In this document: piece after piece, positions 170 to 38,726 of the stretch
Layout: each line of letters opens with the position of its first letter
Position numbering within the stretch: the stretch's first letter is position 1
Notes under the pieces: model-generated
Databases searched by the model: none
What the model was told of the DNA's origin: nothing
Seen by the model: only the letters and a program-made list of their open reading frames with translations
Position numbers and translations under genes: made by a program
IMG/VR virus record: IMGVR_UViG_3300042987_002836
Span: 1-53,527 of that record
DNA length: 53,527 bases
Reading direction: 5' to 3' (one strand)
From: a virus

Positions 170-212
170 TGCTTGGTTGTCCTTTCGTAGTTGAGTTGGT
201 ATTCTTGGATTC

Positions 213-233
213 TATTATAACAACTTTAGTTGT
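213..233 (-). promoter_or_regulatory. Left-arm promoter element, copy 1
   Basis: Minus strand reads CAACTAAAGTTGTTATAATAG: TATAAT preceded directly by the conserved ACTAAAGTTGT box. It drives the truncated gene at 1-169, with 44 nt between the hexamer and the ATG. This is the only copy with CAAC in place of AAAC at its upstream end. Confidence 0.8.
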
Positions 234-254
234 AGCGCCGATCGAGTGATCGCG

Positions 255-470
255 TTACGACGCGTTGTTTACGTGTACGCTGAAGCCAACGTACTCGTTG
301 TTATTCGCCAGTTGACGAAGAGTTTCGCGTTGTTCAGGATTCAGAAGATCAAGAAGTGCTTGATACGAATCGCTTGTGATCAAGACCGCTGGAATTGAAT
401 TGAACTCAAAACCAGAAACAGTGACTTGATACGGATAATCGGGATTGAGGATTGACTTGTACTTGTTCAT
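255..470 (-). CDS. Hypothetical protein (71 aa)
   Basis: Small, probably soluble protein beginning MNKYKSILNPDYPYQV, with its own upstream promoter element and a GAAAGGACATC ribosome-binding site. Its codon use is less GC-rich than that of its neighbours. The C-terminal half has a likely helix (YQALLDLLNPEQRETLRQLA). No family recognised. Confidence 0.75.
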   Translation of the reverse strand: MNKYKSILNPDYPYQVTVSGFEFNSIPAVLITSDSYQALLDLLNPEQRETLRQLANNNEYVGFSVHVNNAS

Positions 471-495
471 GATGTCCTTTCGGTAGGTGGTAATA

Positions 496-518
496 CCATT
501 ATAACAACTTTAGTTTCA
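496..518 (-). promoter_or_regulatory. Left-arm promoter element, copy 2
   Basis: Full consensus TGAAACTAAAGTTGTTATAA followed by TGG on the minus strand. The TGA stop codon of the gene at 516-686 forms the first three bases of the element. TATAAT ends 27 nt before the ATG of the gene at 255-470. Confidence 0.85.
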
Positions 519-686
519 GACAGGGCACGACTCGATCGCGTCACGAGCGTGGAATCGTCTCTCGAAGCCGCATTCTTTGCAGACCTCGGAGAGTCTCTTC
601 TCTTCCCGAGCGAGATCGTCTACGATCCGCCTTCGGCCGGCCTTGCGGCCGATCCGGTAGGCGACGTAGGTCGAGAGTAGACCCAC
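516..686 (-). CDS. Small cysteine-containing protein (56 aa), GTG start
   Basis: Begins with GTG directly after the TAG stop of the upstream gene, with AGGA seven bases before it, so translation is probably coupled. The protein starts MGLLSTYVAYRIGRKAGRRR and has a basic stretch followed by CKECGF and a later Cys near the C-terminus, suggesting a half zinc ribbon. No family recognised. The TGA stop is shared with promoter element copy 2. Confidence 0.65.
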   Translation of the reverse strand: MGLLSTYVAYRIGRKAGRRRIVDDLAREEKRLSEVCKECGFERRFHARDAIESCPV

Positions 687-887
687 CTAGGAATCCTGAC
701 CGTCATCGAACGGCAACGCGTCCTGGCCTGAGGTCTCACGCAGAAGTTGCGCGACGACGTTGTGCCTCTCTGCGTCGGGCGTTTGCGCGACGATGTCCCA
801 CTCGTCCTCGGTGAAGTTCGGCGCGTCGGTGAGGAGGATGTCCTCCGCATCTCCGTACGATCCGTCCTTAGCGAAGTAGTACAGCAT
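687..887 (-). CDS. Hypothetical acidic protein (66 aa)
   Basis: Starts MLYYFAKDGSYGDAEDIL, strongly acidic, preceded by CGAAAGGAGACAAC and by promoter copy 3 twenty nt upstream. It is followed without a gap by the GTG gene at 516-686. No family recognised. Confidence 0.75.
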   Translation of the reverse strand: MLYYFAKDGSYGDAEDILLTDAPNFTEDEWDIVAQTPDAERHNVVAQLLRETSGQDALPFDDGQDS

Positions 888-905
888 GTTGTCTCCTTTC
901 GTAAT

Positions 906-927
906 CTATTATACTAACTTTAGTTTC
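906..927 (-). promoter_or_regulatory. Left-arm promoter element, copy 3
   Basis: Variant GAAACTAAAGTTAGTATAAT on the minus strand. Here the in-frame TAA inside ACTAAAG is the stop codon of the upstream gene (920-1276), so a different triplet of the element serves as terminator codon than in most copies. Twenty nt separate TATAAT from the ATG of 687-887. Confidence 0.85.
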
Positions 928-1276
928 CTTCGGCCCACGACAGGACACCCGTCTCATCTTTCTTTCCGACTAGCACGCCTGATCCGCTCGGGTGCGGCTT
1001 CCACGCCCACTCGCAGCACGGCACGCTGTCTTCGCACGGATGAAGTCCCGGGACGAGCGTAGCCGCAAGGCGAGGGAATGCCCGCAAGAAGTGAAGAACG
1101 CAGTCGTGACACAGAGCCCAGACCTCGGGATCTTCAATCTCTTCCCACGGCTCGTTGTCCATGAAGCCGCCGTAGTGTCCGAGCGCTCTGAACGGTATCG
1201 TGATCCCGCCTTCAAACTGACGCGCGTTTCCAAACATTGTCTTCTGCACGTACCCGCACGCGTCGCACTCGCTCAT
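920..1276 (-). CDS. Zinc-ribbon-like hypothetical protein (118 aa)
   Basis: Starts MSECDACGYVQKTMFG. It has CDAC near the N-terminus and further paired cysteines (ALCHDC, PCCEW), consistent with one or two metal-binding knuckles. Stop-start junction TAG/ATG with the gene upstream (1277-1567), so the two are probably translated from one message. Function unknown. Confidence 0.75.
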   Translation of the reverse strand: MSECDACGYVQKTMFGNARQFEGGITIPFRALGHYGGFMDNEPWEEIEDPEVWALCHDCVLHFLRAFPRLAATLVPGLHPCEDSVPCCEWAWKPHPSGSGVLVGKKDETGVLSWAEGN

Positions 1277-1567
1277 CTACGAGACGCGCGCCCAGGTCCA
1301 GGTCTGCTTGCCATAGCGGCATGACGCAGAGTCGAAGTGCTCAAGCACCTTGGCCGAGATCATCTGCACGGCCTCGCGCTTGGTCGCGCCCGACCCCATC
1401 GGGTCCGAGTCGTACAGTCCGCGCATGACCCACGGGTCCGAGTGGCTGTATGTCTCGTCGTAGGTGACGTAGCCGAGTTGAATCGGGTCGTCGTTAGCGT
1501 ACTTTGCGAAGACGTCCCACGTCGTGTCCGCACGCTTGCGGGTGTAGATGTCGACGATGAAACTCAC
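1277..1567 (-). CDS. Hypothetical protein (96 aa), GTG start
   Basis: A longer frame exists upstream, but the GTG at 1567, overlapping the TGA of the preceding gene as GTGA, fits the coupling style of this genome and gives the start MSFIVDIYTRKRADTTWDVF. It has a hydrophobic N-terminal strand, a Tyr/Asp-rich middle and an amphipathic helix (KREAVQMISAKVLEHF). No family recognised. Confidence 0.7.
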   Translation of the reverse strand: MSFIVDIYTRKRADTTWDVFAKYANDDPIQLGYVTYDETYSHSDPWVMRGLYDSDPMGSGATKREAVQMISAKVLEHFDSASCRYGKQTWTWARVS

Positions 1568-1827
1568 GCCGGCACCATCTCTTCCAGCGCGCGATCCAGC
1601 ATCTCGATCCAGTCCTCGCCGCGCACGGTGGCGCACCTGAGGAACGCCATTCGAGACGTTGCTTGAATCCTGCCGAGCAGGTAGGCCGGAGTCTCTTCTA
1701 ACTTCGGCGCCACGTCGAAGCTGGCGCTCTTCGCCGAGACGTAGACCTCGGTGAGGATCCGCGAAAGTTCGCGGATGTCGTTCTCGAGGTCGCTGACCCT
1801 GAGTTCTAGTTCTTGCTTTGTTGCCAT
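1564..1827 (-). CDS. Hypothetical coiled-coil protein (87 aa)
   Basis: MATKQELELRVSDLENDIRE at the N-terminus is a likely coiled coil. Preceded by CGAAAGGACATCGAC and promoter copy 4. It overlaps the next gene by GTGA. No family recognised. Confidence 0.75.
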   Translation of the reverse strand: MATKQELELRVSDLENDIRELSRILTEVYVSAKSASFDVAPKLEETPAYLLGRIQATSRMAFLRCATVRGEDWIEMLDRALEEMVPA

Positions 1828-1855
1828 GTCGATGTCCTTTCGTCGTTGGTAGATA

Positions 1856-1878
1856 CCATTATAACAACTTTAGTTTCA
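1856..1878 (-). promoter_or_regulatory. Left-arm promoter element, copy 4
   Basis: Full consensus on the minus strand, including the TGA stop of the gene at 1876-2133 at its upstream end. TATAAT is 30 nt before the ATG of 1564-1827. Confidence 0.85.
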
Positions 1879-2133
1879 GCCGGCCTCTTCCATCACCGGG
1901 TCGACCGCGTTGCGCAGGGCTGTGTCGATCCAGGCGTCCCGGTACTGGGCCGAGAACCTGAAGCCACGATCGCTCGCGCGATTGAAGAGATACCAGCGGA
2001 AGAACTTCTCCGGGTCCTTGGCCTTCACCCGCCCGCACGCTAACTCGATGCGATACAGGCTGCGGAGTTCTGGAGTGTCGAGGTCGCTCAGCGCCGCGAC
2101 AAGCGCGCTGAAGTCTGCGTGTGAGACCTTCAT
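1876..2133 (-). CDS. Hypothetical protein (85 aa)
   Basis: Starts MKVSHADFSALVAALSDL; mostly helical and soluble with aromatic-rich middle (KFFRWYLFNRASDRGFRF). Its ATG follows directly on the TGA of the zinc-ribbon gene at 2134-2418. No family recognised. Confidence 0.7.
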   Translation of the reverse strand: MKVSHADFSALVAALSDLDTPELRSLYRIELACGRVKAKDPEKFFRWYLFNRASDRGFRFSAQYRDAWIDTALRNAVDPVMEEAG

Positions 2134-2418
2134 TCAGTCCCACCCCCTGCATCCGCAATAGAAGATGTCGTGCTCGAGAGCGCCGATCGGGTGGAACTCG
2201 TGATCGAGAATCCTCTTGAGGTGCGTCGCAGTCGGATCATTCTTCGCTCGCTCGTGAGCGACGTCGTGGTAGGCGCAGGTCCCGCATCGCACTTGAGCGA
2301 CTCGTGATCCCTCTCCACGGTACTCGAAGAATGCCAGGTTGAAGTCTGACGGCTCGGTTCGTCCACACGAGCACTTCGCTGTGCGTCCGATGAGTTGGTC
2401 TTGCGTGATGGCTGTCAT
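2134..2418 (-). CDS. Cysteine-rich hypothetical protein, likely zinc-binding (94 aa)
   Basis: Contains CSCG near residue 17, CGTCAYHDVAH in the middle and CGCRGWD at the C-terminus, giving three Cys-X-Cys or Cys-X2-Cys knuckles. Preceded by CGAAAGGACAGCA and promoter copy 5. First gene of a two-gene unit with 1876-2133. Confidence 0.75.
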   Translation of the reverse strand: MTAITQDQLIGRTAKCSCGRTEPSDFNLAFFEYRGEGSRVAQVRCGTCAYHDVAHERAKNDPTATHLKRILDHEFHPIGALEHDIFYCGCRGWD

Positions 2419-2443
2419 TGCTGTCCTTTCGTAGGTGATGATT

Positions 2444-2466
2444 CCATTATAACAACTTTAGTTTCA
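2444..2466 (-). promoter_or_regulatory. Left-arm promoter element, copy 5
   Basis: Full consensus. The triplet TGA is present at the upstream end, but the actual stop of the upstream gene lies about 50 bp away, beyond a strong hairpin. TATAAT is 27 nt before the ATG of 2134-2418. Confidence 0.85.
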
Positions 2467-2471
2467 GCGCC

Positions 2472-2496
2472 GGGCCCGGGCCTCCCGCCCGGACCC
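2472..2496 (-). terminator. GC-rich hairpin between transcription units
   Basis: Ten-bp stem (GGGTCCGGGC with GCCCGGGCCC on the minus strand, one G-U pair) and a 5-nt loop. It sits between the stop of 2517-2696 and promoter copy 5. No U-tract, as is common for actinobacterial hairpin terminators. The stem is almost identical to the hairpin at 8990-9017. Confidence 0.6.
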
Positions 2497-2516
2497 AGAC
2501 GCCTAGTGAATCTGAG

Positions 2517-2696
2517 TTACCACTCGCAGTCGACGGGCTCGAACCCGAGATCACGCGCGACCCTGCGCGCCTCTGCGGCAGTCTTGAATCCATCGAACGT
2601 CGGGCCGACGATCTTCGTCTGGCCTCCTCGCGGATTCTTGTGGACTCCGATGAACCGGCCATTCGGCTGATCCACGATGACCATGACTTTCTTCAT
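2517..2696 (-). CDS. DUF2188-like small protein (59 aa)
   Basis: The ATG at 2696 gives MKKVMVIVDQPNGRFIGVHK and follows GAAAGGGGAAACAC; an upstream in-frame ATG lies too near the promoter. The layout (beta hairpin with Gly-Arg, then a helix AAEARRVARDLGFEPVDCEW) resembles small phage and bacterial domains of the DUF2188 kind. That assignment is tentative and rests on pattern only. Confidence 0.6.
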   Translation of the reverse strand: MKKVMVIVDQPNGRFIGVHKNPRGGQTKIVGPTFDGFKTAAEARRVARDLGFEPVDCEW

Positions 2697-2726
2697 GTGT
2701 TTCCCCTTTCGTTGAAGTTGACGATT

Positions 2727-2750
2727 CAATTATACAAACTTTAGTTTCTA
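2727..2750 (-). promoter_or_regulatory. Left-arm promoter element, copy 6
   Basis: Variant GAAACTAAAGTTTGTATAAT; the TAG stop of the upstream gene (2748-3047) directly abuts it. TATAAT is 32 nt before the ATG at 2696. Confidence 0.85.
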
Positions 2751-3047
2751 GTCCAGGTAGTAGACGAAGTTTGACATCGCTTTGTCCCAAGCGTGAGAGA
2801 ACTCATTCTCATCGGCTTGAGCGAATCCAAAGTTTGGATTGTTGTGCGATGCTCCGACAAGTACTGCTGCTCTGGCCATTGCTGTGTCCAGACCTGGATA
2901 CTTTTCTTGCCAAGCGTTCGCGATGTAGTCACCCCACGTGACGACATACGCGTCATCGGAGATTGAGATGTAGACCTCAATGTCGTCTCCTTGGTGGCCA
3001 AAGAGCAGGTTCTCGGTGTCTTGAACTATTAGTGATTCCATTGTCAT
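2748..3047 (-). CDS. Hypothetical protein (99 aa)
   Basis: The start at 3047 (MTMESLIVQDTENLLFG) follows CGAAAGGACACCA; a start ten codons upstream would lie inside the promoter leader. Acidic and aromatic, with WGDYIANAWQEKYPGLDTAM and an Asn-rich patch. Lower GC than the neighbouring genes. No family recognised. Confidence 0.7.
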   Translation of the reverse strand: MTMESLIVQDTENLLFGHQGDDIEVYISISDDAYVVTWGDYIANAWQEKYPGLDTAMARAAVLVGASHNNPNFGFAQADENEFSHAWDKAMSNFVYYLD

Positions 3048-3074
3048 TGGTGTCCTTTCGTCAGGTTGATGATT

Positions 3075-3097
3075 CAATTATACAAACTTTAGTTTCA
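3075..3097 (-). promoter_or_regulatory. Left-arm promoter element, copy 7
   Basis: Variant GAAACTAAAGTTTGTATAAT with the TGA stop of 3095-3448 as its first triplet. TATAAT is 29 nt before the ATG at 3047. Confidence 0.85.
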
Positions 3098-3448
3098 GAC
3101 TTCGTCAACAGGCACGGCCTTCGGGTACGCGGAGATCGGAGTCCCACCCGGGATCACACTCACGTGTGTCTTCGTTTCGCGGAAGATCGGCCATTCGTCT
3201 TGCGTTTCAAACTTTCGCCAAGGCGACGCTTCTTCAGTTCCACATTCTGAGCAGATCTCAGTCTTGTCGTCAGTGCGCGACAGCGCGCCTGGGTACGCTC
3301 CCGGGTTGTCATTCGTCGGGATGAACGACGACTCGCAGCGTGGGCACACAGTCGCGTAGGCTGATCCGTCAACAGTTTCCGGCCCTGGCCAGGCCTGACC
3401 CGTCAACGAATTGTTCTCTGGCCATGCCGGGCCTGACGTGTCGCTCAC
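3095..3448 (-). CDS. Zinc-ribbon hypothetical protein (117 aa), GTG start
   Basis: Contains CPRCESSF near residue 35 and CSECGTEE near residue 67, a classical four-cysteine zinc ribbon. The N-terminal Pro/Gly/Trp-rich segment is probably disordered. The GTG overlaps the stop of 3445-3717 as GTGA. Function unknown. Confidence 0.75.
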   Translation of the reverse strand: MSDTSGPAWPENNSLTGQAWPGPETVDGSAYATVCPRCESSFIPTNDNPGAYPGALSRTDDKTEICSECGTEEASPWRKFETQDEWPIFRETKTHVSVIPGGTPISAYPKAVPVDEV

Positions 3449-3717
3449 TTGTGCTCCTTGAGGTACGCTTCGATTCCGGCCATCATGTCAGGCAGAGCCT
3501 CGCGTGCCTCGAGCGTGCTTTGCAGCATGCTGATCCGTTCACTCAGCGCGTCTAGGCAAGCCAACTGCGCGCCGACACTCGGGTGAGTCGGTCCGTCTTC
3601 TTGCAGAGAGACTAGGTGATGCATTCGAGTCATGAGAGCCGTCACCACCACGTCAAGCTCGTAGGCCGACATGCTCATCTCGATCGATGGCTCTTCCGTC
3701 TTCTTCTTTCGCTTCAT
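3445..3717 (-). CDS. Hypothetical helical protein (90 aa)
   Basis: Starts MKRKKKTEEPSIEMSMSAYE with a strong GGAGG ribosome-binding site. The remainder is helical with a likely coiled coil in its C-terminal half. The gene lies 81 bp downstream of the VWA-protein gene, across a hairpin and with no promoter element, so it may be transcribed by read-through from copy 8. Confidence 0.75.
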   Translation of the reverse strand: MKRKKKTEEPSIEMSMSAYELDVVVTALMTRMHHLVSLQEDGPTHPSVGAQLACLDALSERISMLQSTLEAREALPDMMAGIEAYLKEHK

Positions 3718-3748
3718 GTGGACCTCCTGTCCGTCATTTGGTTTGTGC

Positions 3749-3791
3749 GGTGCAGGCCGGGGGACAATGGGACTTGGACCCGGCCCGCACC
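3749..3791 (-). terminator. Strong GC-rich hairpin after the VWA-protein gene
   Basis: Thirteen-bp stem with one A-C mismatch (arms 3749-3761 and 3779-3791) and a 17-nt loop, placed directly after the stop of 3799-5649. No U-tract. It could end transcription or reduce read-through into 3445-3717. Confidence 0.55.
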
Positions 3792-3798
3792 ACGATCT

Positions 3799-5649
3799 TT
3801 ACTTTCCTGCTCCGCCGACCGCGGTCAGCGCCTTGGCCGCCGCCGCGCCGATGAGCTGCGCCGCACTCGCGATGTCGCGTCCGCACGCTACAACCTGCGC
3901 CTTGGTGCCGCGGCAGATGTGCTCAGCCTCGCGTGACACGTGGCCGTGGTGCTCGAAGGTGAGCCACAAGACTCCGACACCAGCGCGATCACACTCGTTG
4001 ATCCACTTGCGTGCGGCCTGCCCCTCAGAGTGCGTGTAGCAGCCATCGCTTGCGACGACCAGGAGTCGTGCGCCGCCTCCAGAGAGGAGTGACACTCCAC
4101 CATCGAGAGCCTTGAACGCTTTGTCGAACCGCTCGGTACCATCAGGCGCGCTGTACACGCGGACCTTGTCGAGGTGCTGACCGGGCTTGAGAGTTGGGAA
4201 GACGCCTTGGCCGTAGTAGACCATCGCTGCTCGTCCTTGAACTCGGCGGACTGCCTCAGACATGACCCACGCTGAGACGGCCATTGGCTGCATCGCGTCG
4301 CTCATCGAGCCGCTGATGTCGACCATCATGCCGACCGAGAGGGTCGGGTCGTCGACGTGCTTGCGGACGGTGCGGCGCCAAGGCTCGACCTGCGTCATGA
4401 CACCCTTGCTCTTGAGCGCGGCGCCCTGCACCATCGCACGAGTGCGCAGGCGACCAGGAGGCAAGATCGAGTGGATCTCCTTCTCGTCGCGATCGCGGTA
4501 CTTCGCCTTGTCGAGCATCTGCGCGACCTTGACAGCGGCCGCGCGCTCGGGACCTGTCGGCTGACGCTCCTCAACAAGGCTGCTGTGAGTGTGCGTGTCT
4601 GCGACCGGACCAGTGCCCTTGCCGAAGACGTCGGCCGCGGTGTCGCGTGCGTCCTTGGCTTGCTTCGCGGCACCAGCGCGTGACTTGGCTTCGTCCTTCC
4701 AGTCCTGGCGCTCTTGCTGATCTGCGAGTTGGTCGTTGACAGAGACCGCGGTAGCTTCAGCGGCCTCCTCAAGAGCCTCCATCATCTCAGCGAAGTCCTC
4801 CGCACCGAGACCCGAGCTTGAGCCTTCGCCATCACCCGAGCCATCGCCGCTTCCGCTGCCATCACCGGGCTGACCATCTTCTGCATCCTCTTCGCCGCGC
4901 TCCTCAGAGACCTCCTTGACCAGCGCTTCCCAGCGTCGTGCGATGTCCATGAGCGCTGTGATGTTGGCGGCTTCAGTGTCTTGAGCTTGCTGCCAGAGAG
5001 CGCGGAGCTTGTCGTAGAGCTCTACGCCCAAGATGCCGACGATCATCGTGCCGAGATCGGCAAGGTCGTCGAAGTCGAGGACGCCAGCGTCGATGCGAGC
5101 GTACGTCAGAGCGGCCATGCTCGCGGCGATGCGAGTCTTAGATCCCTCAATCGGGTTGTCGCGCATGTCGGCGACGACCAGCTCGAGAGCGCACGCCTTG
5201 AGGAAGGCGGCCATGTCTGGGTCGAGAGCAACACCGCGCTTCTCGATGCGTCCCTCTTCGAGATACACCAGCGCCATGAACTCGTGGCGCGTGAGCTCGT
5301 GCTGCATCGCGATGATGTCCCACGTGCTGAACCGAGCGTGCATCGCTTCGTGATAGATGGCGCCGATGGCCTTCGGCCACTCGTACATGACGTCACGCTG
5401 AGTGAGGTCGCCGATCATCTCTGGCTTGATGCCTTTGCCGAACGCAGTCTCGACGTTGACCTCAACCTCCGCAGTCGCGGGAGTGAAGCAAGCCGGCGCT
5501 GTGCCGCCTGCGCCTGGTCCTACGTAGGCGATGAGGTCGCCGCGTGATGCCCACATGTTGGCGAGTATGCCGATCTTCGAGCCAACGGGCAGCCACTCTG
5601 ACGGAGTTGCCTGGCCCTTGGTCTTGCGTTTGTAGTCGATGTGTCCCAT
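3799..5649 (-). CDS. CobT-like protein with HExxH metallopeptidase-like and VWA domains (616 aa)
   Basis: Residues 99-136 carry HEAMH followed by LEEGRIE, the layout of a gluzincin-type zinc site. Residues about 250-280 are an acidic Gly/Ser linker, followed by a helical region. Residues about 435-600 form a VWA domain with the MIDAS motif DISGS (444-448) and a later SDG. VWA proteins of this type (CobT and relatives) work with MoxR/CobS AAA+ ATPases, and such an ATPase is encoded directly upstream (5781-6779). In cobaltochelatase, CobS and CobT energise cobalt insertion by CobN; no CobN is seen here. Alternatives are a metal-insertion or remodelling chaperone of another target, or an active protease controlled by the VWA domain. 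Promoter copy 8 and its own leader precede it. Confidence 0.8.
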   Translation of the reverse strand: MGHIDYKRKTKGQATPSEWLPVGSKIGILANMWASRGDLIAYVGPGAGGTAPACFTPATAEVEVNVETAFGKGIKPEMIGDLTQRDVMYEWPKAIGAIYHEAMHARFSTWDIIAMQHELTRHEFMALVYLEEGRIEKRGVALDPDMAAFLKACALELVVADMRDNPIEGSKTRIAASMAALTYARIDAGVLDFDDLADLGTMIVGILGVELYDKLRALWQQAQDTEAANITALMDIARRWEALVKEVSEERGEEDAEDGQPGDGSGSGDGSGDGEGSSSGLGAEDFAEMMEALEEAAEATAVSVNDQLADQQERQDWKDEAKSRAGAAKQAKDARDTAADVFGKGTGPVADTHTHSSLVEERQPTGPERAAAVKVAQMLDKAKYRDRDEKEIHSILPPGRLRTRAMVQGAALKSKGVMTQVEPWRRTVRKHVDDPTLSVGMMVDISGSMSDAMQPMAVSAWVMSEAVRRVQGRAAMVYYGQGVFPTLKPGQHLDKVRVYSAPDGTERFDKAFKALDGGVSLLSGGGARLLVVASDGCYTHSEGQAARKWINECDRAGVGVLWLTFEHHGHVSREAEHICRGTKAQVVACGRDIASAAQLIGAAAAKALTAVGGAGK

Positions 5650-5678
5650 AGTTTGTCCTTTGTCCTTGTCCCTGGTAT

Positions 5679-5703
5679 CAATTATAACAACTTTAGTTTC
5701 TGA
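5679..5703 (-). promoter_or_regulatory. Left-arm promoter element, copy 8
   Basis: GAAACTAAAGTTGTTATAAT on the minus strand, 31 nt before the ATG of the VWA-protein gene. It gives this gene its own promoter although the partner ATPase lies directly upstream, so the two can be expressed at different levels. Confidence 0.85.
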
Positions 5704-5717
5704 GAACCCCTAAGGGA

Positions 5718-5746
5718 GGTCCCTGGACACCTACTATCCAGAGACC
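5718..5746 (-). terminator. Hairpin between the AAA+ gene and promoter copy 8
   Basis: Ten-bp stem with one G-U pair (arms 5718-5727 and 5737-5746) and a 9-nt loop, located between the stop of 5781-6779 and promoter copy 8. The flanks are also GC-rich and palindromic. Probable terminator separating the two units. Confidence 0.55.
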
Positions 5747-5780
5747 CCCCGCAGCCAAGAGAGCCGAAAGGGGTGAAGGC

Positions 5781-6779
5781 TCAGATCTTGGCAGGTCTGC
5801 ACTCCTCGCCAAAGACGCGAGTGAAGACATCGGCGACCACCGGGCGATCGAGCTCGGGCGCTGCCGCGAGCAAGTTGCTGATGGCGAACTTGGTGCCGAA
5901 GGTCGTGCTGAGGTCTCGGAAGGCGAGGAGCTCACGCATCTGCGGAGCCCACGACGTCTCGGCCGAGTCCTGCTTCTTGGCGAGGTTCTGCGCCGCGGTG
6001 ACGGCGGCAGTCGGAACGCCGAGCTTGCGAGCAAGCGACCAGTCGGTGGTCATCTCGGCGTGAACCGCGAAGCGAGAGAGGAGAGCCTCAGAGAGACGAA
6101 CTCCTGGCGCATTCGGGTTGGTGGCCGCGATGACGTAGAACCCATCGGCAGCTTTGACGGTGCCGCGTTCAGGATTGGCTGTGACGTTGTACTCGCGTCG
6201 ACCGTCCATGAGACCGTAGACGATGCTGAGCACCTTCGGGTCGATGAGGCCGATCTCGTCGATCAGCAGGACGCCGCCGGCTTCCGCAGCTTTGACAAGC
6301 GGACCATCTTCCCAGATGAAGCCGCCGCTCGGAGTCTGGACGTAGCCGCCCACAAGATCTGCGACTTCAGTGTCGCCTGAGCCGAGCACAGTCTGCATGC
6401 CGCCGGCCTGGTCGTAGAACGCCGCTTCGACGAGTGCAGTCTTGCCGCAGCCGGGAGCTCCGTAGAGGAGGATGTAGCTGGACATCTCACGCGCTTTGCG
6501 GAGGACCATGACGTCGTCATGCTCGCCCCACTTGCGAGTGTAGTAGGCCTCGCCATTGGGTCGCATGAACTTGTCCATGCCAGTGAGTGATTCGGTGGTC
6601 GTCACGGCGACTTTCTTCTTGGGCGCTGGTGCGCGGGTCGGAGTGATCTTACCTTGTGCATTGACGTGCTCTGCGAGCTTCGCGGCCGCGTTGGTGTCGA
6701 ACGCCTGAGCGGCGGCCGAGACCAGCAGGTCGGCTAGGCCGGCGCTGAGCTTGTCGTAGTCTGGAATTGTTGATGTCAT
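5781..6779 (-). CDS. MoxR/CobS-like AAA+ ATPase (332 aa)
   Basis: Walker A GAPGCGKT at residues 107-114, Walker B LLIDE at 171-175, sensor 1 ATN at 219-221 and an SRF arginine-finger-like motif at 235-237. The region VLGSGDTEVADLVGGYV matches the MoxR/CobS/dynein-like (AAA_5) group. The first 60 residues are Ala- and Lys-rich and probably flexible. It is encoded upstream of a VWA protein, the standard genomic pairing of MoxR ATPases. Expected role: ATP-driven remodelling of a client presented by the VWA partner, possibly cobalt chelation. Function in the phage is inferred. Confidence 0.88.
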   Translation of the reverse strand: MTSTIPDYDKLSAGLADLLVSAAAQAFDTNAAAKLAEHVNAQGKITPTRAPAPKKKVAVTTTESLTGMDKFMRPNGEAYYTRKWGEHDDVMVLRKAREMSSYILLYGAPGCGKTALVEAAFYDQAGGMQTVLGSGDTEVADLVGGYVQTPSGGFIWEDGPLVKAAEAGGVLLIDEIGLIDPKVLSIVYGLMDGRREYNVTANPERGTVKAADGFYVIAATNPNAPGVRLSEALLSRFAVHAEMTTDWSLARKLGVPTAAVTAAQNLAKKQDSAETSWAPQMRELLAFRDLSTTFGTKFAISNLLAAAPELDRPVVADVFTRVFGEECRPAKI

Positions 6780-6816
6780 TTTGTGTTTCCCCTTTGTGGT
6801 TTGTAGGTGTTGGATT

Positions 6817-6839
6817 CCATTATACTAACTTTAGTTTCA
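6817..6839 (-). promoter_or_regulatory. Left-arm promoter element, copy 9
   Basis: Variant GAAACTAAAGTTAGTATAAT, preceded by the TGA stop of 6837-7310. TATAAT is 39 nt before the ATG of the AAA+ gene. Confidence 0.85.
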
Positions 6840-7310
6840 GACCGAAGGCTGCGGGATGATCTTCTCAGGGAAGCCCCACGACTTACGAGTCTTCATGATG
6901 CGGCCGATGACCTTGTACGGCGTGTGGCCACGGCGTACCGCGAGCAGGTCGTCGGCGCTGACCTCAACGACGAGTGGACGCTTGACGAGCTTCCAGCCAT
7001 TGGTGATCAGTGAGACATACAGCGAGTCTGTCAGAGACAGGACGTCGCGGGTCATCTCACGGAGCTGAAGGTCAGTGTGAGTGCTGGTCGTCGGCGTGAC
7101 ACCAGGATTGAGAATCTTGGAGCTTGTGAACTGACGCCAGTTCTTCTTTGGTGCGGCGATTGTGAGACGGCGACGGTAGGTCGTCATCGGCACAACTGCC
7201 ATGTCTGCTGCGCGGCCCTCAGGCATGATGAGAACCTGAGTGACTTGCGAGGGTCGCTCGAACTCTAGATAGAGAGCTCTTCCGACCAGTGTGTTCTTGA
7301 TGTCTGTCAT
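6837..7310 (-). CDS. Hypothetical protein (157 aa)
   Basis: Starts MTDIKNTLVGRALYLEFERP; mixed alpha/beta and basic, with a Trp-rich C-terminus (TRKSWGFPEKIIPQP). Own promoter (copy 10) and a GGGGAAAGACACA leader. Stands just upstream of the AAA+/VWA pair; whether it is a client or partner cannot be told. No family recognised. Confidence 0.75.
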   Translation of the reverse strand: MTDIKNTLVGRALYLEFERPSQVTQVLIMPEGRAADMAVVPMTTYRRRLTIAAPKKNWRQFTSSKILNPGVTPTTSTHTDLQLREMTRDVLSLTDSLYVSLITNGWKLVKRPLVVEVSADDLLAVRRGHTPYKVIGRIMKTRKSWGFPEKIIPQPSV

Positions 7311-7344
7311 TGTGTCTTTCCCCTTTGTTTGTAGGTTGTAGTAT

Positions 7345-7367
7345 CTATTATAACAACTTTAGTTTCA
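7345..7367 (-). promoter_or_regulatory. Left-arm promoter element, copy 10
   Basis: Full consensus with the TGA stop of 7365-7673 at its upstream end. TATAAT is 36 nt before the ATG of 6837-7310. Confidence 0.85.
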
Positions 7368-7673
7368 GGCCTTGGCCTTCGGGACCCGGGCTACCAGGGT
7401 CCAGCGAACTCGGCCAGCCTTGTCCGGGTTCTTGAGGATCGCCCACTCGAGCGTCCAGCCGGTGGACTCATTGAATCGCTTCCGCAGGTTGTAGCGGCAG
7501 GTGTGGCAGTAGGCGTTGCTGCTGCCTTGGTACACGACGCCCCACTCTCCTGCGCGGCGCTTGATCGCAGCTAGGCGACGTGCGTACTTGCCTTCGCGAG
7601 ACTTCTTCTGCGGAGTCGTGCGAAGCTGCGCGACCATCTCGTCGCTGATGAATGTGGTGATTGGTTTTGTCAT
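7365..7673 (-). CDS. Basic hypothetical protein (102 aa)
   Basis: Starts MTKPITTFISDEMVAQLRTT. Very basic, with a single CHTC pair in the middle followed by a beta-rich C-terminal half. Charge suggests nucleic-acid binding. Ribosome-binding site CTGGGAGGGCTCACA. Confidence 0.7.
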   Translation of the reverse strand: MTKPITTFISDEMVAQLRTTPQKKSREGKYARRLAAIKRRAGEWGVVYQGSSNAYCHTCRYNLRKRFNESTGWTLEWAILKNPDKAGRVRWTLVARVPKAKA

Positions 7674-7707
7674 TGTGAGCCCTCCCAGGCGTAGTGGTTG
7701 ACGGATT

Positions 7708-7730
7708 CCATTATAACAACTTTAGTTTCC
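7708..7730 (-). promoter_or_regulatory. Left-arm promoter element, copy 11
   Basis: GAAACTAAAGTTGTTATAAT; the TGA stop of the upstream gene lies one base farther out than in most copies. TATAAT is 36 nt before the ATG of 7365-7673. Confidence 0.85.
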
Positions 7731-8129
7731 TCAGCTCACCGCCGCAAGCTGAGGAGACGGCACGCTGGTGAATGTGATCCAGGCGTCGAAGTGGTTGAAC
7801 GTGTTGCCGCCGACGTTGAGCGTCTGCTTCGGCAGGATGAATCCTGGCGAGCACGGGCACGAGCAGCCTGCGCGCTGCGACCACTGCAACTTGCCGAGAT
7901 CAAACATCTCGCCGAGCAGCGAGCTGTGGATCAGCGTCTTGTAGAGATTGTACGGGCGGCTGCGACGATTCATCAAGTTCTCGACGAGCGTCTCGTCCTT
8001 GACATCGACGTACATGCGCGGAGCCGAGACGTACTCGGAGTAGCGCTGTCCGGCGTAGATCTTACGCTCGATGATCGTGATCTCAATGTCCTTGAGACGG
8101 CACGTGTAGCGTTTGCGGGTATCTTCCAT
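7731..8129 (-). CDS. Hypothetical protein with CSCPC cluster (132 aa)
   Basis: Begins MEDTRKRYTCRLKDIEITII. Residues about 88-93 carry CSCPCSPGF, possibly a metal site. Rich in Tyr and beta strand. Own promoter (copy 12) and a CGAAAGGACAACACA leader. No family recognised with confidence. Confidence 0.75.
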   Translation of the reverse strand: MEDTRKRYTCRLKDIEITIIERKIYAGQRYSEYVSAPRMYVDVKDETLVENLMNRRSRPYNLYKTLIHSSLLGEMFDLGKLQWSQRAGCSCPCSPGFILPKQTLNVGGNTFNHFDAWITFTSVPSPQLAAVS

Positions 8130-8165
8130 TGTGTTGTCCTTTCGTCGTAGGTTTGTATTGCGATA

Positions 8166-8188
8166 CCATTATAACAACTTTAGTTTCA
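8166..8188 (-). promoter_or_regulatory. Left-arm promoter element, copy 12
   Basis: Full consensus with the TGA stop of 8186-8428 as its first triplet. TATAAT is 38 nt before the ATG of 7731-8129. Confidence 0.85.
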
Positions 8189-8428
8189 CAACTCTTCCGG
8201 CCGCAGGCCTTCGACGAGCACCTTGAATAGGTCCTCATGTGTGAGAGTCTGTTCGTCGACGATCTGGCCGCAGCTGAAGAACGCGAACGTGATCTCCTCA
8301 CGACCTACGCTGATCTCGAGTTCTTCTCGTTCTTGGTCGTAGTAGTCTCCGACAAACACCCGCACAACGCGACGCTCTTCATCGCCGAGCTCGCAGGTGT
8401 CGATTGACAGGTCTGGTTTTGTGATCAT
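8186..8428 (-). CDS. Hypothetical acidic protein (80 aa)
   Basis: Starts MITKPDLSIDTCELGDEERR; acidic, beta-rich first half and helical end. There is no promoter copy upstream: a hairpin pair separates it from 8510-8944, so it probably depends on read-through. The nearest GGGAG lies unusually far (about 16 nt) from the ATG. Confidence 0.7.
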   Translation of the reverse strand: MITKPDLSIDTCELGDEERRVVRVFVGDYYDQEREELEISVGREEITFAFFSCGQIVDEQTLTHEDLFKVLVEGLRPEEL

Positions 8429-8455
8429 GATGTGTGTGTCCAGTTCTCCCAGGAA

Positions 8456-8503
8456 CCGGGCTCAGTATCTCCAAGGATGTGAGCCCGGCTCCCAGCATGG
8501 GAG
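8456..8503 (-). terminator. Two consecutive hairpins between 8510-8944 and 8186-8428
   Basis: A perfect 9-bp stem CCGGGCTCA/TGAGCCCGG (8456-8464 with 8480-8488), directly preceded in the transcript by a 5-bp CTCCC/GGGAG hairpin (8489-8503). No promoter element here, so these may be a terminator with partial read-through or a leader structure controlling the next gene. Confidence 0.55.
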
Positions 8504-8509
8504 GTGATG

Positions 8510-8944
8510 CTAGACCGCAGCCCCTTCCTCGCTCAGACCGGCGATCATGTTGACGAACTCGTCGCTGTTGCGAACAGAGTCGCCAGCCGCGAGATCAATG
8601 AAGTCGTCGAAGCTCATTCGCGCGACGAGGTTTGTGATGTTGGACGCCTCACGCATCTCGACGATGCACTTGTCCCAGACAACGACCAGTACGTAGTCGT
8701 AGTCCGGCATGCAGAAGCTCTCTCCTGCGCTGATGCCGAAGTTCAGCTCCTGCGACCAGAGATCTCCGATGATCGTCGACATCGCGATGCGTGTCGCATA
8801 GCTCGAGTCTGACCATCGCGGCTTCGCCTGAATGATCGCTTGCGCGAGATCTTGCCTTTGACTTGATCCGCCCCAGTGGCTGTACAGCCACACCGGCGTC
8901 GCGTCTTTACTTTCCTTGAATCCGAATACTGCCCTGTCACCCAT
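8510..8944 (-). CDS. Hypothetical protein (144 aa)
   Basis: Starts MGDRAVFGFKESKDATPVWL, with a conserved-looking YSHWGG motif, IIGDLWSQELNFGIS, and a helical acidic C-terminus. Ribosome-binding site CTGGGAGGTCAACAAC. I have the impression of a family frequent in actinobacteriophages but cannot name it. Confidence 0.75.
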   Translation of the reverse strand: MGDRAVFGFKESKDATPVWLYSHWGGSSQRQDLAQAIIQAKPRWSDSSYATRIAMSTIIGDLWSQELNFGISAGESFCMPDYDYVLVVVWDKCIVEMREASNITNLVARMSFDDFIDLAAGDSVRNSDEFVNMIAGLSEEGAAV

Positions 8945-8980
8945 GTTGTTGACCTCCCAGTCTTTGTTGTGGTGATGTGA

Positions 8981-9028
8981 CTCGTGAGTGGGGCCCGGGC
9001 GGGATTGCCCGGACCCCGAACTCGCGAG
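8981..9028 (-). terminator. Extended 20-bp hairpin after 9032-9373
   Basis: Inner stem 8990-9000 with 9007-9017 (11 bp, one wobble, 6-nt loop) and outer stem 8981-8989 with 9020-9028 (9 bp, one wobble), with a 2-nt bulge. The inner stem repeats the hairpin at 2472-2496 almost exactly. No U-tract. Probable terminator placed right after the stop codon. Confidence 0.6.
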
Positions 9029-9031
9029 GTA

Positions 9032-9373
9032 TTACTTGGCCAAGAGGACCGTGTAGTTCCCCTCAACCAGCGTCGCGGAGTATGCCTCCGGGAACGCGGC
9101 CTTGAGAGCCTCTCGGTCGATCTTGCTCATGTTGCGGAGCGAGATCGTGATTCGCTCGACACCGCCGATGGTGGCTGAGGTGCAGTCACCGAGCATCTCG
9201 CGGAGAGCCTTCTCAGCGGCATCCTTCTGCGCTTCGAGCGCCTTGATGCCTGCCTTGGCCTCAGCGAACTGCGCGATCAAGGCCTCGGCCATGTCACGAT
9301 TGTCGTCGAGCACCGCGACCGACTTGGTCGTGGTGACCGCTGTCGTCGTGGTTGTGGTGGTTGTGGTTGCCAT
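9032..9373 (-). CDS. Hypothetical protein with poly-Thr N-terminus (113 aa)
   Basis: MATTTTTTTTTAVTTTK opens the protein; a coiled-coil-like helix follows (MAEALIAQFAEAKAGIKALE), then a C-terminal part (KIDREALKAAFPEAYSATLV) resembling the ends of small phage proteins linked to recombination genes. The poly-Thr tract is encoded by a CCA/ACC-type triplet repeat. Promoter copy 13 and CTGGGAGGTTCACAAA precede it. Confidence 0.75.
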   Translation of the reverse strand: MATTTTTTTTTAVTTTKSVAVLDDNRDMAEALIAQFAEAKAGIKALEAQKDAAEKALREMLGDCTSATIGGVERITISLRNMSKIDREALKAAFPEAYSATLVEGNYTVLLAK

Positions 9374-9410
9374 TTTGTGAACCTCCCAGTTCTTGTTGAT
9401 TGGCTGTATA

Positions 9411-9433
9411 CCATTATAACAACTTTAGTTTCA
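9411..9433 (-). promoter_or_regulatory. Left-arm promoter element, copy 13
   Basis: Full consensus beginning with TGA, but the upstream gene stops 57 bp away, so the triplet is conserved here without being a stop codon. TATAAT is 39 nt before the ATG of 9032-9373. Confidence 0.85.
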
Positions 9434-9489
9434 GAGTTCGGGCTTTTCGAGGGCCCTGGCTCCTTGTCCCTAATAGTAAGGACGGGGTG

Positions 9490-9714
9490 TTACAGGGTTT
9501 CGTTGCGCGGCCGGAACGGAATCACCTTCGCATCGGGCTTCTCTGGCTCCGGCTCGGGGACGTCTGGGCGTTCTTTGTCTTCCATGACAGAGACGTAGCT
9601 CAGCTCTGCCTCGAGCTGGTGGCCGATGAACTCGGTGAGATAGTCGGCGATCGCGTCGGCCTTCTCTTCGTCGGCCTGAATCGAGAACGACGCGCTGATG
9701 TTGTACCAGGTCAT
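9490..9714 (-). CDS. Hypothetical protein (74 aa)
   Basis: Starts MTWYNISASFSIQADEEKAD with a ferredoxin-like beta-alpha-beta pattern, followed by an acidic Pro-rich tail. ATGA overlap with the HTH gene 9711-10142, so the two are probably translated together. Confidence 0.75.
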   Translation of the reverse strand: MTWYNISASFSIQADEEKADAIADYLTEFIGHQLEAELSYVSVMEDKERPDVPEPEPEKPDAKVIPFRPRNETL

Positions 9715-10142
9715 TTGCGCTCGTCCGGCCTGATCTCGTACTTGCGGCCATCGGCCTTCTTGAATCGCCAGCCGAAGTTCTTCATGAACGTTCGCAGCTG
9801 GCCGCCGGTGACGCCCATCTTCTCGGCGAACTCGGCGACTGTGAAGATCTGGTAGTGGTTCTCTGGAGTGTTGATCCAGCGTCGAATGACGTCGTCGGGA
9901 TCGATGTCTGTGCGTCGGCCGCTGTTGAAGATCTCCTTGCGCGCCTCTGCCGAGATCAGGTTTCGCTCGCGGCTGCTGAGCACGACCATCGCTCGCGGAA
10001 GTCCGAGAACGTCGACGGCTTTTCGAAGAATGTCCTCGGCCAGCTTCGGGTCGAAGATCTTGTAGCTGTCGTCTCCTCCTCGGAGCTCAGTGATGATCTC
10101 GTGGAATGTCTTTTCTTGTTCTTGCACTTTCGTCGCTTCCAT
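9711..10142 (-). CDS. HTH-containing DNA-binding protein (143 aa)
   Basis: The C-terminal third (TVAEFAEKMGVTGGQLRTFM) reads as a helix-turn-helix followed by a basic beta wing (KKADGRKYEIRP). The N-terminal half is helical. Likely a sequence-specific DNA-binding protein; regulator of this arm is a possibility. Preceded by CCTGGGGAGGTACGTAC and promoter copy 14. Confidence 0.7.
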   Translation of the reverse strand: MEATKVQEQEKTFHEIITELRGGDDSYKIFDPKLAEDILRKAVDVLGLPRAMVVLSSRERNLISAEARKEIFNSGRRTDIDPDDVIRRWINTPENHYQIFTVAEFAEKMGVTGGQLRTFMKNFGWRFKKADGRKYEIRPDERK

Positions 10143-10175
10143 GTACGTACCTCCCCAGGTAGTTGTTGGTAGGTA

Positions 10176-10198
10176 CCATTATAACAACTTTAGTTTCA
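10176..10198 (-). promoter_or_regulatory. Left-arm promoter element, copy 14
   Basis: Full consensus. The conserved TGA is not the stop of the upstream gene, which ends with TAG at 10203. TATAAT is 35 nt before the ATG of 9711-10142. Confidence 0.85.
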
Positions 10199-10202
10199 AA
10201 GC

Positions 10203-10451
10203 CTACAGCTCGAACCGCCAGAAGCCGGGGAAGAGAGACGGGAAGGCGCAGTCGATACAGATCGGCCAGGCCTCTTCGTCTTCGTTGTCGACAAGCAGGG
10301 CGCATGGAATGTAGGTGTCCTCGCAAGGACCGACCAGGATGCCGCAGTTCTCGCACTCGGTGTCGCCGATCGTGAAGTCGAAGAGACCGGATGTCGCGAC
10401 GCGAATCGCGTCATCCGGCTCCTCGAGTATGAGCATTTCGTACGAGATCAT
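10203..10451 (-). CDS. Zinc-ribbon-like hypothetical protein (82 aa)
   Basis: CENCGILVGPC and a later CIDC form a plausible zinc site; the rest is acidic. Starts 21 bp after the stop of 10473-11138 with a weak ribosome-binding region, so it is probably translated from the same message driven by copy 15. Confidence 0.7.
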   Translation of the reverse strand: MISYEMLILEEPDDAIRVATSGLFDFTIGDTECENCGILVGPCEDTYIPCALLVDNEDEEAWPICIDCAFPSLFPGFWRFEL

Positions 10452-10472
10452 GAGCGTTGGTCGCTCATGGTA

Positions 10473-11138
10473 TCACGCGCGGACGATCTTGCGGATCTCC
10501 GCCAACTGAGCTTCAAGCTCAGCCACTCGTGCCATCAGCTTCTCAACGCGGCCATTCGAGACCTCGCTGACAAGAGCGCTGATCAAGTCCGGCGTTGCCG
10601 GCGTAGCAGCTGAGCTCTTGCTCTTGCTCTTGCGACTCGTCGGCTCACGCAGCTCAGCGAGAGCGGCGAGGCGTTCGCCATGAGTCTCGTTGTAGCGGCG
10701 CGAGAGCTCGAGGAGACGCTCTCTGTTCTTGCGGTAGTACGCTCGGCGTGAGCGCTTGTCTCCGCGGCTGATCGAGTTTCCATCACCGAGGATGATCCCA
10801 GGAATGACTCCGCTGCTGACGCGTGTCGGGATGTTCGGCGACATCCACCACAGCATTCCTTGCGTTCCTCGAGTGGATTGTTTTCCGGCTCGAGCGATGC
10901 GCTCTTCCTTGGTTTCTCGGCGTGAGAACACCTGTGACTTGCTCTGCATCTGGCGCAGGACCTGCGTGACTCGCGTTGAGTCGATATCAGTCTCCAGCAA
11001 CTGACTTGCCTGGAAACGGATCTCACCTCCCGCGACAGGCTCTGGGGCGGACGAGAGGATCACGGTGATCGTCTCTTCTAATTGCGGTGTCGTGACTCGT
11101 ATGGCACGAGTCTTGCGACGCGTTGACGTTTTCGTCAT
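10473..11138 (-). CDS. Putative DNA-binding protein with C-terminal coiled coil (221 aa)
   Basis: Basic N-terminus (MTKTSTRRKTRAIRVTTPQ), then a region like a winged helix (residues about 20-85, ending SQVFSRRETKEE), a basic middle (KRSRRAYYRKNRERLLELSR) and a C-terminal coiled coil (VEKLMARVAELEAQLAEIRK). Probably a dimeric regulator or nucleoid-type protein. Transcribed from the most upstream promoter copy. Confidence 0.65.
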   Translation of the reverse strand: MTKTSTRRKTRAIRVTTPQLEETITVILSSAPEPVAGGEIRFQASQLLETDIDSTRVTQVLRQMQSKSQVFSRRETKEERIARAGKQSTRGTQGMLWWMSPNIPTRVSSGVIPGIILGDGNSISRGDKRSRRAYYRKNRERLLELSRRYNETHGERLAALAELREPTSRKSKSKSSAATPATPDLISALVSEVSNGRVEKLMARVAELEAQLAEIRKIVRA

Positions 11139-11183
11139 TTGTCTCTCCTATGAGTTTCGCTCGGCTGGATGCCGAGGTTGACT

Positions 11184-11205
11184 CAATTATAACATCTTTA
11201 GTTTC
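11184..11205 (-). promoter_or_regulatory. Left-arm promoter element, copy 15 (most upstream)
   Basis: Variant GAAACTAAAGATGTTATAAT, the only copy with A in the AAAGATG position. It lies 47 nt before the ATG of 10473-11138 and marks the right limit of the element's distribution. Confidence 0.8.
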
Positions 11206-14346: not shown

Positions 14347-14359
14347 TTCTGATTCCATG

Positions 14360-14433
<74 letters not shown>

Positions 14434-14443
14434 TATTTTTGAG

Positions 14444-14517
14444 AGCCCTCGGTGGGATTCGAACCCACGACCACCTCATTACAAGTGAGGTGCTCTGGCC
14501 AGCTGAGCTACAAGGGC
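14444..14517 (-). tRNA. tRNA-Thr (anticodon UGU)
   Basis: Minus strand begins GCCCTTGTAGCTCAGC. Acceptor GCCCTTG/CGAGGGC (one G-U pair), anticodon stem CCTCA/TGAGG with loop CTTGTAA, and T-arm GTGGGTTCGAATCCCAC. Discriminator U, CCA not encoded. Ten bp upstream of tRNA-Pro. Thr and Pro are very abundant in the collagen-like and Thr-rich proteins of this phage. Confidence 0.93.
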
Positions 14518-24424: not shown

Positions 24425-24601
24425 CTATTTCTTGCCCCTGTTGTACCGGTTGGCTTCCTTGCAGGCGTCACAGGTCACGTTGACCTCGTTGAACGTCACC
24501 CACTCGGTGTCAGCCTCGACGCCGCAGAGAGTCTTGTAGTACGAGCCTCCCCAGCCGCCGACCGACAGGTGCACGATCGCATAGGCCTCGCTACTTGGCA
24601 T
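24425..24601 (-). CDS. Small zinc-ribbon-like protein (58 aa)
   Basis: Starts MPSSEAYAIVHLSVGGWGGS at an ATG inside the last codons of the reductase gene (11-bp overlap). TLCGVEAD and VTCDACKEA give a four-residue metal site; basic end. Translational coupling to the reductase suggests related timing. Confidence 0.65.
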   Translation of the reverse strand: MPSSEAYAIVHLSVGGWGGSYYKTLCGVEADTEWVTFNEVNVTCDACKEANRYNRGKK

Positions 24602-30802: not shown

Positions 30803-31150
30803 ATGCTTGCAGGAGTTCTGCACTTGAAGATGGAGCAGGGTGCTACGTTCACCCAGCGCCTTACCTGGAAGATCGACGGATCTCCTGTTGATCTAACGTC
30901 TTATTCTGCACGAATGAAGGTCCGTCGCATGGTCCAAGAACCGGCGATCTTGTCGCTGACAACATCGGCAGGCGGCGGGATCGTGCTCGGCGGAGTCAAC
31001 GGGACGATCGACATCACCGTGTCGGCAACGCAGACCGCGCTGCTGAACGCGGGCAAGTACATGTACGACCTCGAGCTTGTCACGGCGGGCGGAGTTGTAA
31101 CTCGTCTCGTCAAAGGAAGGCTCACGATCGACGCAGAGATCACGTACTGA
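30803..31150 (+). CDS. Phage structural-type protein (115 aa)
   Basis: The ATG at 30803 is chosen because it gives [20 protein letters not shown], the usual opening of a family found with phage tail genes, and GGAGG lies about 13 bases upstream; a GTG at 30746 is the alternative. Beta-rich domain with a strand pattern [18 protein letters not shown]. Its stop overlaps the next ATG (TGATG). Probably a baseplate or fibre-attached protein. Confidence 0.65.
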
Positions 31151-32913: not shown

Positions 32914-32916
32914 ATC

Positions 32917-33681: not shown

Positions 33682-33705
33682 AACCCTTGCTGGACAAGGG
33701 TTTCC
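33682..33705 (+). terminator. Rho-independent-like terminator
   Basis: AACCCTTG-ctgga-CAAGGGTT with an 8-bp perfect stem followed by TCCTGT, directly after the LamG-like gene stop. It closes the first fibre operon. Confidence 0.65.
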
Positions 33706-33710
33706 TGTGT

Positions 33711-33732
33711 ACACACCTAAACTTAGGTGTGT
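33711..33732. promoter_or_regulatory. 22-bp inverted repeat upstream of the serine recombinase
   Basis: ACACACCTAA-ac-TTAGGTGTGT, perfect 10-bp arms around 2 bp, followed by GTTAG-N7-CTAAC (33731-33747). The placement about 55 bp before the recombinase gene suggests an operator or recombination site. Confidence 0.6.
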
Positions 33733-33786
33733 TAGAGTGTAGCTAACGAGTTTTGTACAAGATTGTCACGGAAAGCCTTACTGGAT

Positions 33787-34485: not shown

Positions 34486-34547
34486 GTCTCTCGTCTCAGA
34501 ATCCCGGCTCGTTTTTTCAGCGCCCGTCTCTCCCCGAGCGAAGAAAC

Positions 34548-38645: not shown

Positions 38646-38666
38646 GCGGTCACACTTTCAATGCGT

Positions 38667-38675: not shown

Positions 38676-38726
38676 TTGGCTATCCCGCCGTGCCGCCGGC
38701 AGGACATGACTGTATTGGAGTCGTGA

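Follow-up and report, generated by a model that had tools for sequence, protein, structure and literature searches.

An array of probable compact promoters with exchangeable upstream boxes in uncultured actinobacterial phages

An array of fifteen elements

The IMG/VR virus record IMGVR_UViG_3300042987_002836 was analysed as a single stretch of 53,527 nucleotides (nt), positions 1 to 53,527, called here the window; the record is linear and a fragment. Near its left end, most genes are preceded by a copy of one short element, (G)AAACTAAAGNNNTATAAT. An earlier note on this DNA, made from the letters alone, had counted 15 copies, all on the minus strand and each 20-47 nt before a start codon. Both statements were borne out: a scan allowing up to 3 mismatches found 15 copies, minus strand throughout, between 214 and 11204 (chance count for the 15-site element 0.03 by shuffling, shuffle maximum 1; control pattern, 0 matches), and the distance from TATAAT to ATG is 20-47 nt at 15 of 15 sites, each ahead of the start of an open reading frame (ORF). 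The elements are listed below, in window coordinates, with the gene that each precedes. Positions within the element are numbered so that TATAAT begins at -12.

208..233, minus strand: putative promoter element 1 (-26 to -1), before the gene starting at 169 and running off the window's left end
492..517, minus strand: putative promoter element 2, before gene 255-470
902..927, minus strand: putative promoter element 3, before ORF 687-887
1852..1877, minus strand: putative promoter element 4, before gene 1564-1827
2440..2465, minus strand: putative promoter element 5, before gene 2134-2418
2723..2748, minus strand: putative promoter element 6, before gene 2517-2696
3071..3096, minus strand: putative promoter element 7, before gene 2748-3047
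5675..5700, minus strand: putative promoter element 8, before gene 3799-5649 (weak CoxE-like VWA match)
6813..6838, minus strand: putative promoter element 9, before gene 5781-6779 (AAA_5 ATPase)
7341..7366, minus strand: putative promoter element 10, before gene 6837-7310
7704..7729, minus strand: putative promoter element 11, before gene 7365-7673
8162..8187, minus strand: putative promoter element 12, before gene 7731-8129
9407..9432, minus strand: putative promoter element 13, before gene 9032-9373
10172..10197, minus strand: putative promoter element 14, before gene 9711-10142
11180..11205, minus strand: putative promoter element 15, variant AAACTAAAGATGT, the array's first, before gene 10473-11138
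10473..11138, minus strand: the array's first gene, winged-helix domain and C-terminal coiled coil, fast diverging, a candidate regulator

On the window's minus strand, TATAAT and AACTAAAG are confined to these 15 sites, and AACTAAAG is never found without TATAAT. The earlier note described a near-invariant TATAAT and box with three varying bases between them. The two parts are indeed near-constant, but the varying positions are -14 and -13 (GT at 11 of the 15 sites, AG or TG in the remainder), to which is added a T-to-A change at -16 in site 11186, the sole exception to constancy from -24 to -15. Likewise, the 20 nucleotides then delimited contain the right core, but conservation reaches further, to a G at -26 (14 of 15 sites) and, downstream of the -10, to N-G-(A/T)-A-T-C, with G at -5 in all 15 sites and (A/T)ATC at -4 to -1. 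The TG at -15/-14 that is the signature of an extended -10 is present at 11 of the 15 sites and is missing in several box-bearing relatives.

The element is intergenic, often overlapping the stop codon of the preceding gene, and a separate ribosome-binding site (GAAAGGA) lies between it and the ATG. At 1876-1878, 3095-3097, 6837-6839, 7365-7367, and 8186-8188, the first A of the element (TGAAACTAAAG) falls within the stop codon TGA of the preceding gene, so that genes and elements are packed end to end.

The earlier note saw no copies outside 0.2-11.2 kb, which is right for the window, but the window is a fragment. G010, nearly identical to it, has 26 copies, and the nearest named genome, Actinomycetia phage DSL-LC01 (a lake-metagenome assembly, ~77% identical in the primase gene), carries a related form, (A)GATTCTAAAGATGTTATAATNGAATC, ~32-33 times between 22.6 and 43.3 kb, always on the same strand. 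Absence from close relatives, which the earlier note had named as grounds for abandoning its proposal, is thus not what was found. The suspicion that the element is phage-specific also held up: its exact 18-mer occurs in the genomes of 84,980 species as 14 scattered single matches, with 0 multi-copy loci and 0 record titles naming an actinobacterium. Among the matches listed in a 14-base scan, most were single chance matches. A limited search of open-licence papers found no earlier description of this promoter.

A -10 and a start site

Leaderless mRNAs are common in actinobacteria. If TATAAT is a -10, then the ATG of a leaderless message is expected 6-7 nt after it. In 419 element copies from 13 related phages, the set used for all start-site statistics, the first ATG after TATAAT falls at offset 6 in 66 copies, at offset 7 in 23, at offset 8 in 1, and at offsets 9-11 in none; ATGs resume at 12 and lie mostly at 27-50. 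With near-duplicates removed, 32 of 197 copies have an ATG at offset 6-7. RNA hairpins of at least 5 pairs start at offsets 5-9 in 40 copies, against ~10 in shuffled leaders. The coincidence of leaderless ATGs and 5' hairpins, two unrelated features, argues that both mark one start site, and both the ATG peak and the hairpin starts fall where a sigma70-type promoter (TATAAT, with a start ~7 nt downstream) would place it. Since all 15 copies in the window are leadered, their start site is predicted from the family. To judge from this geometry, the element is very probably a promoter.

In G016 (L172-L173) and other relatives, many leaders open with a GC-rich hairpin at or beside the predicted +1, e.g., TATAATAGAATC-ACCGGCAGCCGCCGGT, and the window has one like case, at 11186. 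GC-rich leader hairpins are possibly stabilisers of the 5' end of the mRNA.

The earlier note was also correct that a -35 is missing. Among the window's sites there is no conservation upstream of -26, and in the 419 copies TTGACA at spacers of 15-19 does no better than at shifted positions, so the elements are not canonical -35/-10 promoters.

A repeat that is intergenic and often lies over the previous gene's stop codon might instead serve translation, in the manner of the start-associated sequences known from cluster K mycobacteriophages, or mark a boundary for recombination of gene cassettes, and be no promoter at all. However, such a repeat would not be expected 20-47 nt from the ATG with a distinct ribosome-binding site between, nor would it account for leaderless cases whose -10 is placed for transcription to start at the ATG; it is hard to credit. 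Nor is much to be said for recognition by a phage RNA polymerase of the single-subunit T7/N4 type, very improbable despite a contiguous 26-nt element in a single orientation and a T7 promoter that is about as long. Such an enzyme would have no call for a perfect bacterial -10, a start 7 nt downstream, and leaderless ATGs at that start; moreover, PF00940 had no match in 10 records (a search made without a positive control), and the giant protein of DSL-LC01 showed no match to an RNA polymerase.

The box and the -10 as one unit

The conserved box occupies -26 to -15, where the spacer of a -35/-10 promoter would run, and has the core C-22 T-21 N N R-18 G-17. In the 13 phages, the spacing between core and TATAAT is identical in 275 of 282 pairs. 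Strong boxes have a -10 at the expected place in ~322 cases and lack one in ~9 (the reversed sequence gives ~16 without), although the motif matrices were trained on TATAAT-bearing sites and the counts with a -10 are therefore partly built in. The fixed spacing, and the occurrence of boxes without a -10 at chance level, speak for a single composite promoter and against independent repressor operators. A repressor operator is bound neither to one spacing nor to pairing with a -10, but a site touched by the transcribing complex itself has to respect both, which suggests that the box is contacted within that complex. As part of it, the box would likely substitute for the -35.

The earlier note had also offered an operator overlapping the -10, now the less supported of its two proposals, since the box is locked to one spacing and hardly found without a -10. 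In that case a phage repressor, bound over the -10/-35 spacer, would silence all the promoters of the array together, either as a late shut-off or to provide superinfection immunity. Many copies in a single orientation, variants specific to each phage, and a near-palindromic core (AACTAAAGTT) would all fit, as would a conserved winged-helix gene that heads the array and has a box promoter before it in 9 of 13 phages. But the sites of an operator array would also occur apart from promoters, at variable distance, which is not the case here, and a repressor site leaves the missing -35 unexplained. Palindromic recognition by a dimer, through AACTAAAGTT, was considered and set aside: its positions lack covariation within DSL-LC01, and the pooled signal lies between phages. 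Together with the winged-helix protein's divergence, which proves independent of the box (see below), this makes an operator unlikely.

Boxes of related phages

Other IMG/VR contigs carry 5-35 copies each. The element is kept before orthologous genes in 8-11 of 12-13 phages for seven tested families, and it is never present (13 phages) ahead of the small gene 10203-10451. In DSL-LC01, the array region shares AAA-ATPase and VWA-like genes with the window; the sole paper on that phage makes no mention of promoters.

Relatives reached through the AAA-ATPase (60-81% identity) retain a TATAAT array but with other boxes. The box CTAAAG is found in the window, DSL-LC01, G001/G003, G005/G007, L202, L212, and L227. 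Others, in the same register, are CTAAAAG (G016), CTAGGGA (L196-198), CTcaGGAA (L204-206), CTgggGAA (L194), CT.gGGA (L203), and CCAGAG (L207). The alternatives include CTCAGGAA and CTGGGGAA, with TATAAT unchanged. C-22 is common to all the variants, and G-17 to all but that of G016.

A second set of relatives has CCTGA immediately before TATAAT, as an extended -10, to which L226 adds a -35-like TTTACTT, and L240 and L224 have canonical GATTTGACAAA (TTTGACA) promoters ahead of many genes. (Groups of relatives are here defined by motif type and not as tested clades.) Since the CCTGA and TTTGACA relatives also have one promoter per gene, this appears to be a habit of the wider family, in which the module upstream of the -10 differs. 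Such relatives suggest that the upstream module has been exchanged and single-gene promoters kept. Among cultured relatives in the AAA gene (Pumpernickel, A3Wally, Forza, GodonK, GMA2, and Cece), no TATAAT arrays were found in the 40 kb examined.

Some of these genomes carry other repeated signals. A second promoter class without the CT box, (A/G)CCTGTTATAAT, appears in L148/L149 (DSL-LC01 84349 and 99666), G002 (13996), and G008 (9360). At the two DSL-LC01 positions it reads ACCTGTTATAAT, and there it precedes genes for nucleotide metabolism and repair, outside the array. The array-less L252, L272, and L273 have 12-14 copies of another one-strand repeat (of the TTTTCATTTTT type), often tens of nt ahead of TTGAC-like sequences, and in L231, CGAACGTAAAGAATGTGTACG is repeated right after terminator-like T runs.

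Elsewhere in the window are tRNA-Pro(tgg) and tRNA-Thr(tgt) (14359-14517, minus strand), a B12-type ribonucleotide reductase (24591-26642), several collagen-repeat proteins (31150-45341), a serine resolvase-type recombinase (33763-34485), and a CBM_5_12 protein with an RCC1-repeat protein (48051-53186).

What might read the box

The geometry of the -10, the position of the start site, the absence of a -35, the rigid spacing, and the swapping of boxes can be read from the aligned sequences. The explanation proposed goes further. Each site would be a compact promoter, complete in itself, for the sigmaA-type RNA polymerase of the host, made up of a perfect -10, often the TG of an extended -10, the G at -5, and the box instead of a -35. 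With its own copy before most genes of the region, the array would make a coordinated set of short transcripts, some of them leaderless in relatives. A specificity factor, encoded by phage or host, would contact the box, act on the polymerase at a fixed distance, and replace the contact between sigma region 4 and the -35. A box read by such a factor would let this class of genes, presumably early ones, be switched together. We consider this explanation as a whole somewhat more probable than its competitors combined, and would put the particular claim that a separate factor reads the box positively at slightly better than even.

Host sigmaA is assumed because searches of phage records for sigma factor domains came back empty: PF04545 (10 records) and PF04542 (17 records) gave no match while positive controls worked, and the phage records searched contained no Sigma70_r2 or Sigma70_r4 protein. 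Of the earlier note's two proposals, a promoter read by an altered or factor-assisted host polymerase is the more favoured, but the factor was not identified.

That note named two helix-turn-helix products as candidates. One, 9711-10142, is found in just 2 of 13 box phages. The other, 10473-11138, has fared better in part. Its structural model has a winged-helix part (pLDDT ~80-93) and a C-terminal coiled coil, and its best structural matches are mostly winged helices of the PadR, LmrR, and Fur kinds, none of which reaches E 0.001. The gene is present in 37 scanned loci, every one with an array, and was not found in array-poor relatives or the six cultured phages; several array loci that lack it are contigs starting just upstream of the AAA gene. 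The protein, however, does not diverge as the box does. Its identity is 24-31%, against 75-77% for the AAA protein, and between phages with nearly identical boxes it is just 19-29% (for L212 and L227, box distance 0.02 and winged-helix identity 0.25). Over 24 phages the Mantel correlation with box divergence is r=0.55, but the VWA protein (0.52) and the product of gene 6837 (0.53) do as well. A motif that diverges with its repressor, as in operator arrays, was not found for this protein within the box phages (figures below); another repressor is possible.

The family of gene 8510-8944 occurs in 13 of 13 box phages and, near the array, in 0 of 11 CCTGA phages. Its only match is a PHROG without an assigned function, and as the split may reflect plain descent, it was not retained as the reader. 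Wbl genes are present in 25 of 26 box-phage records and in 2 of 18 records of the CCTGA type, many of the latter short; the window, itself a fragment, has no Wbl match. Because Wbl proteins act together with sigmaA, and in Streptomyces also with a partner that reads DNA, an activator assisted by Wbl is a fair lead, no more.

Several matters weigh against the explanation proposed. No reader of the box was found. Within the 13 box phages, winged-helix divergence is unrelated to box divergence (r=0.04, p=0.38), and of 53 shared protein families screened over the same phages, none tracks box divergence after correction (best p=0.003). The box-bearing relatives are all metagenomic, and to these points must be added the partly built-in counts mentioned above. 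Since none of the families screened tracks the box, its reader may be a phage protein beyond those sampled, a factor supplied by the host, or sigma.

Perhaps, then, the sigmaA of the host, assisted by RbpA and its other ordinary partners, itself recognises all of the element as an extended -10 of uncommon length, and the box variants follow differences among hosts. The TG in most of the window's sites, the invariant G at -5, and the rigid spacing accord with this, and similarity of boxes unrelated to phage proteins is what a host reader would produce. But L194, L196, L204, and L207 lose the TG yet keep their boxes, the exact element is found in no named actinobacterial genome, and DSL-LC01 has box-less TGTTATAAT promoters elsewhere. 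On balance direct reading by sigmaA seems rather improbable.

A sigmaA promoter with a factor-read box could be taken a step further, to a new class of actinobacterial phage promoter: a -10 joined to an exchangeable box in the spacer, where a factor encoded by the phage would do what sigma region 4 normally does at the -35. Box specificities would differ among relatives, and each phage would thereby keep its promoters out of its rivals' reach. This we offer only tentatively. In any event, there are now several hundred aligned promoters from an uncultured actinobacterial phage group, in which the -10 stays constant while the upstream boxes vary naturally, so that possible substitutes for a -35 can be tested directly in vitro with host polymerase. 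From this set follow predictions of start sites, of leaderless mRNAs, and of a regulon comprising genes of unassigned function, and the element provides a search signature for this phage group.

Comparison with known systems

The middle and late promoters of Thermus phage P23-45 have an extended -10 and no -35, and gp39 moves sigma region 4 off the -35 (PMC7403470). They share with the present elements a TATAAT-type -10, the lack of a -35, and service to a class of phage genes, but here there is an additional conserved box of ~10 nt upstream of the TG, which varies among relatives and is possible without the TG. T4 middle promoters combine a MotA box with a -10 and depend on sigma appropriation by AsiA and MotA (PMC7403470). 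There, too, a phage-specific box stands in place of the -35 and the -10 is kept. The MotA box is centred near -30, however, while the present box, at -26 to -15, is centred near -20 and abuts the extended -10.

In Streptomyces, promoters co-activated by WhiA and WhiB carry the word GACAC, which one protein recognises in concert with a Wbl protein (PMC4850268). The actinobacterial setting, the short DNA word, and the Wbl genes of box phages are similar; the word differs from the box, and the window fragment lacks a Wbl match.

Other actinophage repeats are similar in number or arrangement. The stoperators of cluster A mycobacteriophages, to which a repressor binds, are scattered across the genome (PMC6550527), in tens of copies, mostly in a single orientation, with a motif that varies between related phages. 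The present elements differ in being fixed to a -10 ahead of genes, with box and winged-helix distances uncorrelated within the group. Cluster O mycobacteriophages have more than 30 copies per genome of a 17-bp dyad repeat (PMC4351075), many of them between small one-strand genes, and some leaderless promoters are predicted in those phages, but that repeat is palindromic, mostly away from promoters, and partly intragenic, whereas the elements here are asymmetric composite promoters. In cluster K, the start-associated sequences occupy the place of a ribosome-binding site, at 3-7 bp from the start codon (PMC3203893). They too are repeats in a single orientation ahead of many non-structural genes, but the present elements lie 20-47 nt upstream or have the ATG at +1. 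Gordonia phage Vardy (cluster DJ) has a 50-bp TATAAT motif (PMC9671010), likewise a repeated intergenic sigma70-like promoter motif before several actinophage genes; it differs in having five copies in one phage, and no swapped box is described in the text consulted. The swapped-box array, if read as proposed, would belong to a known kind, that of phage promoter arrays read by the host polymerase.

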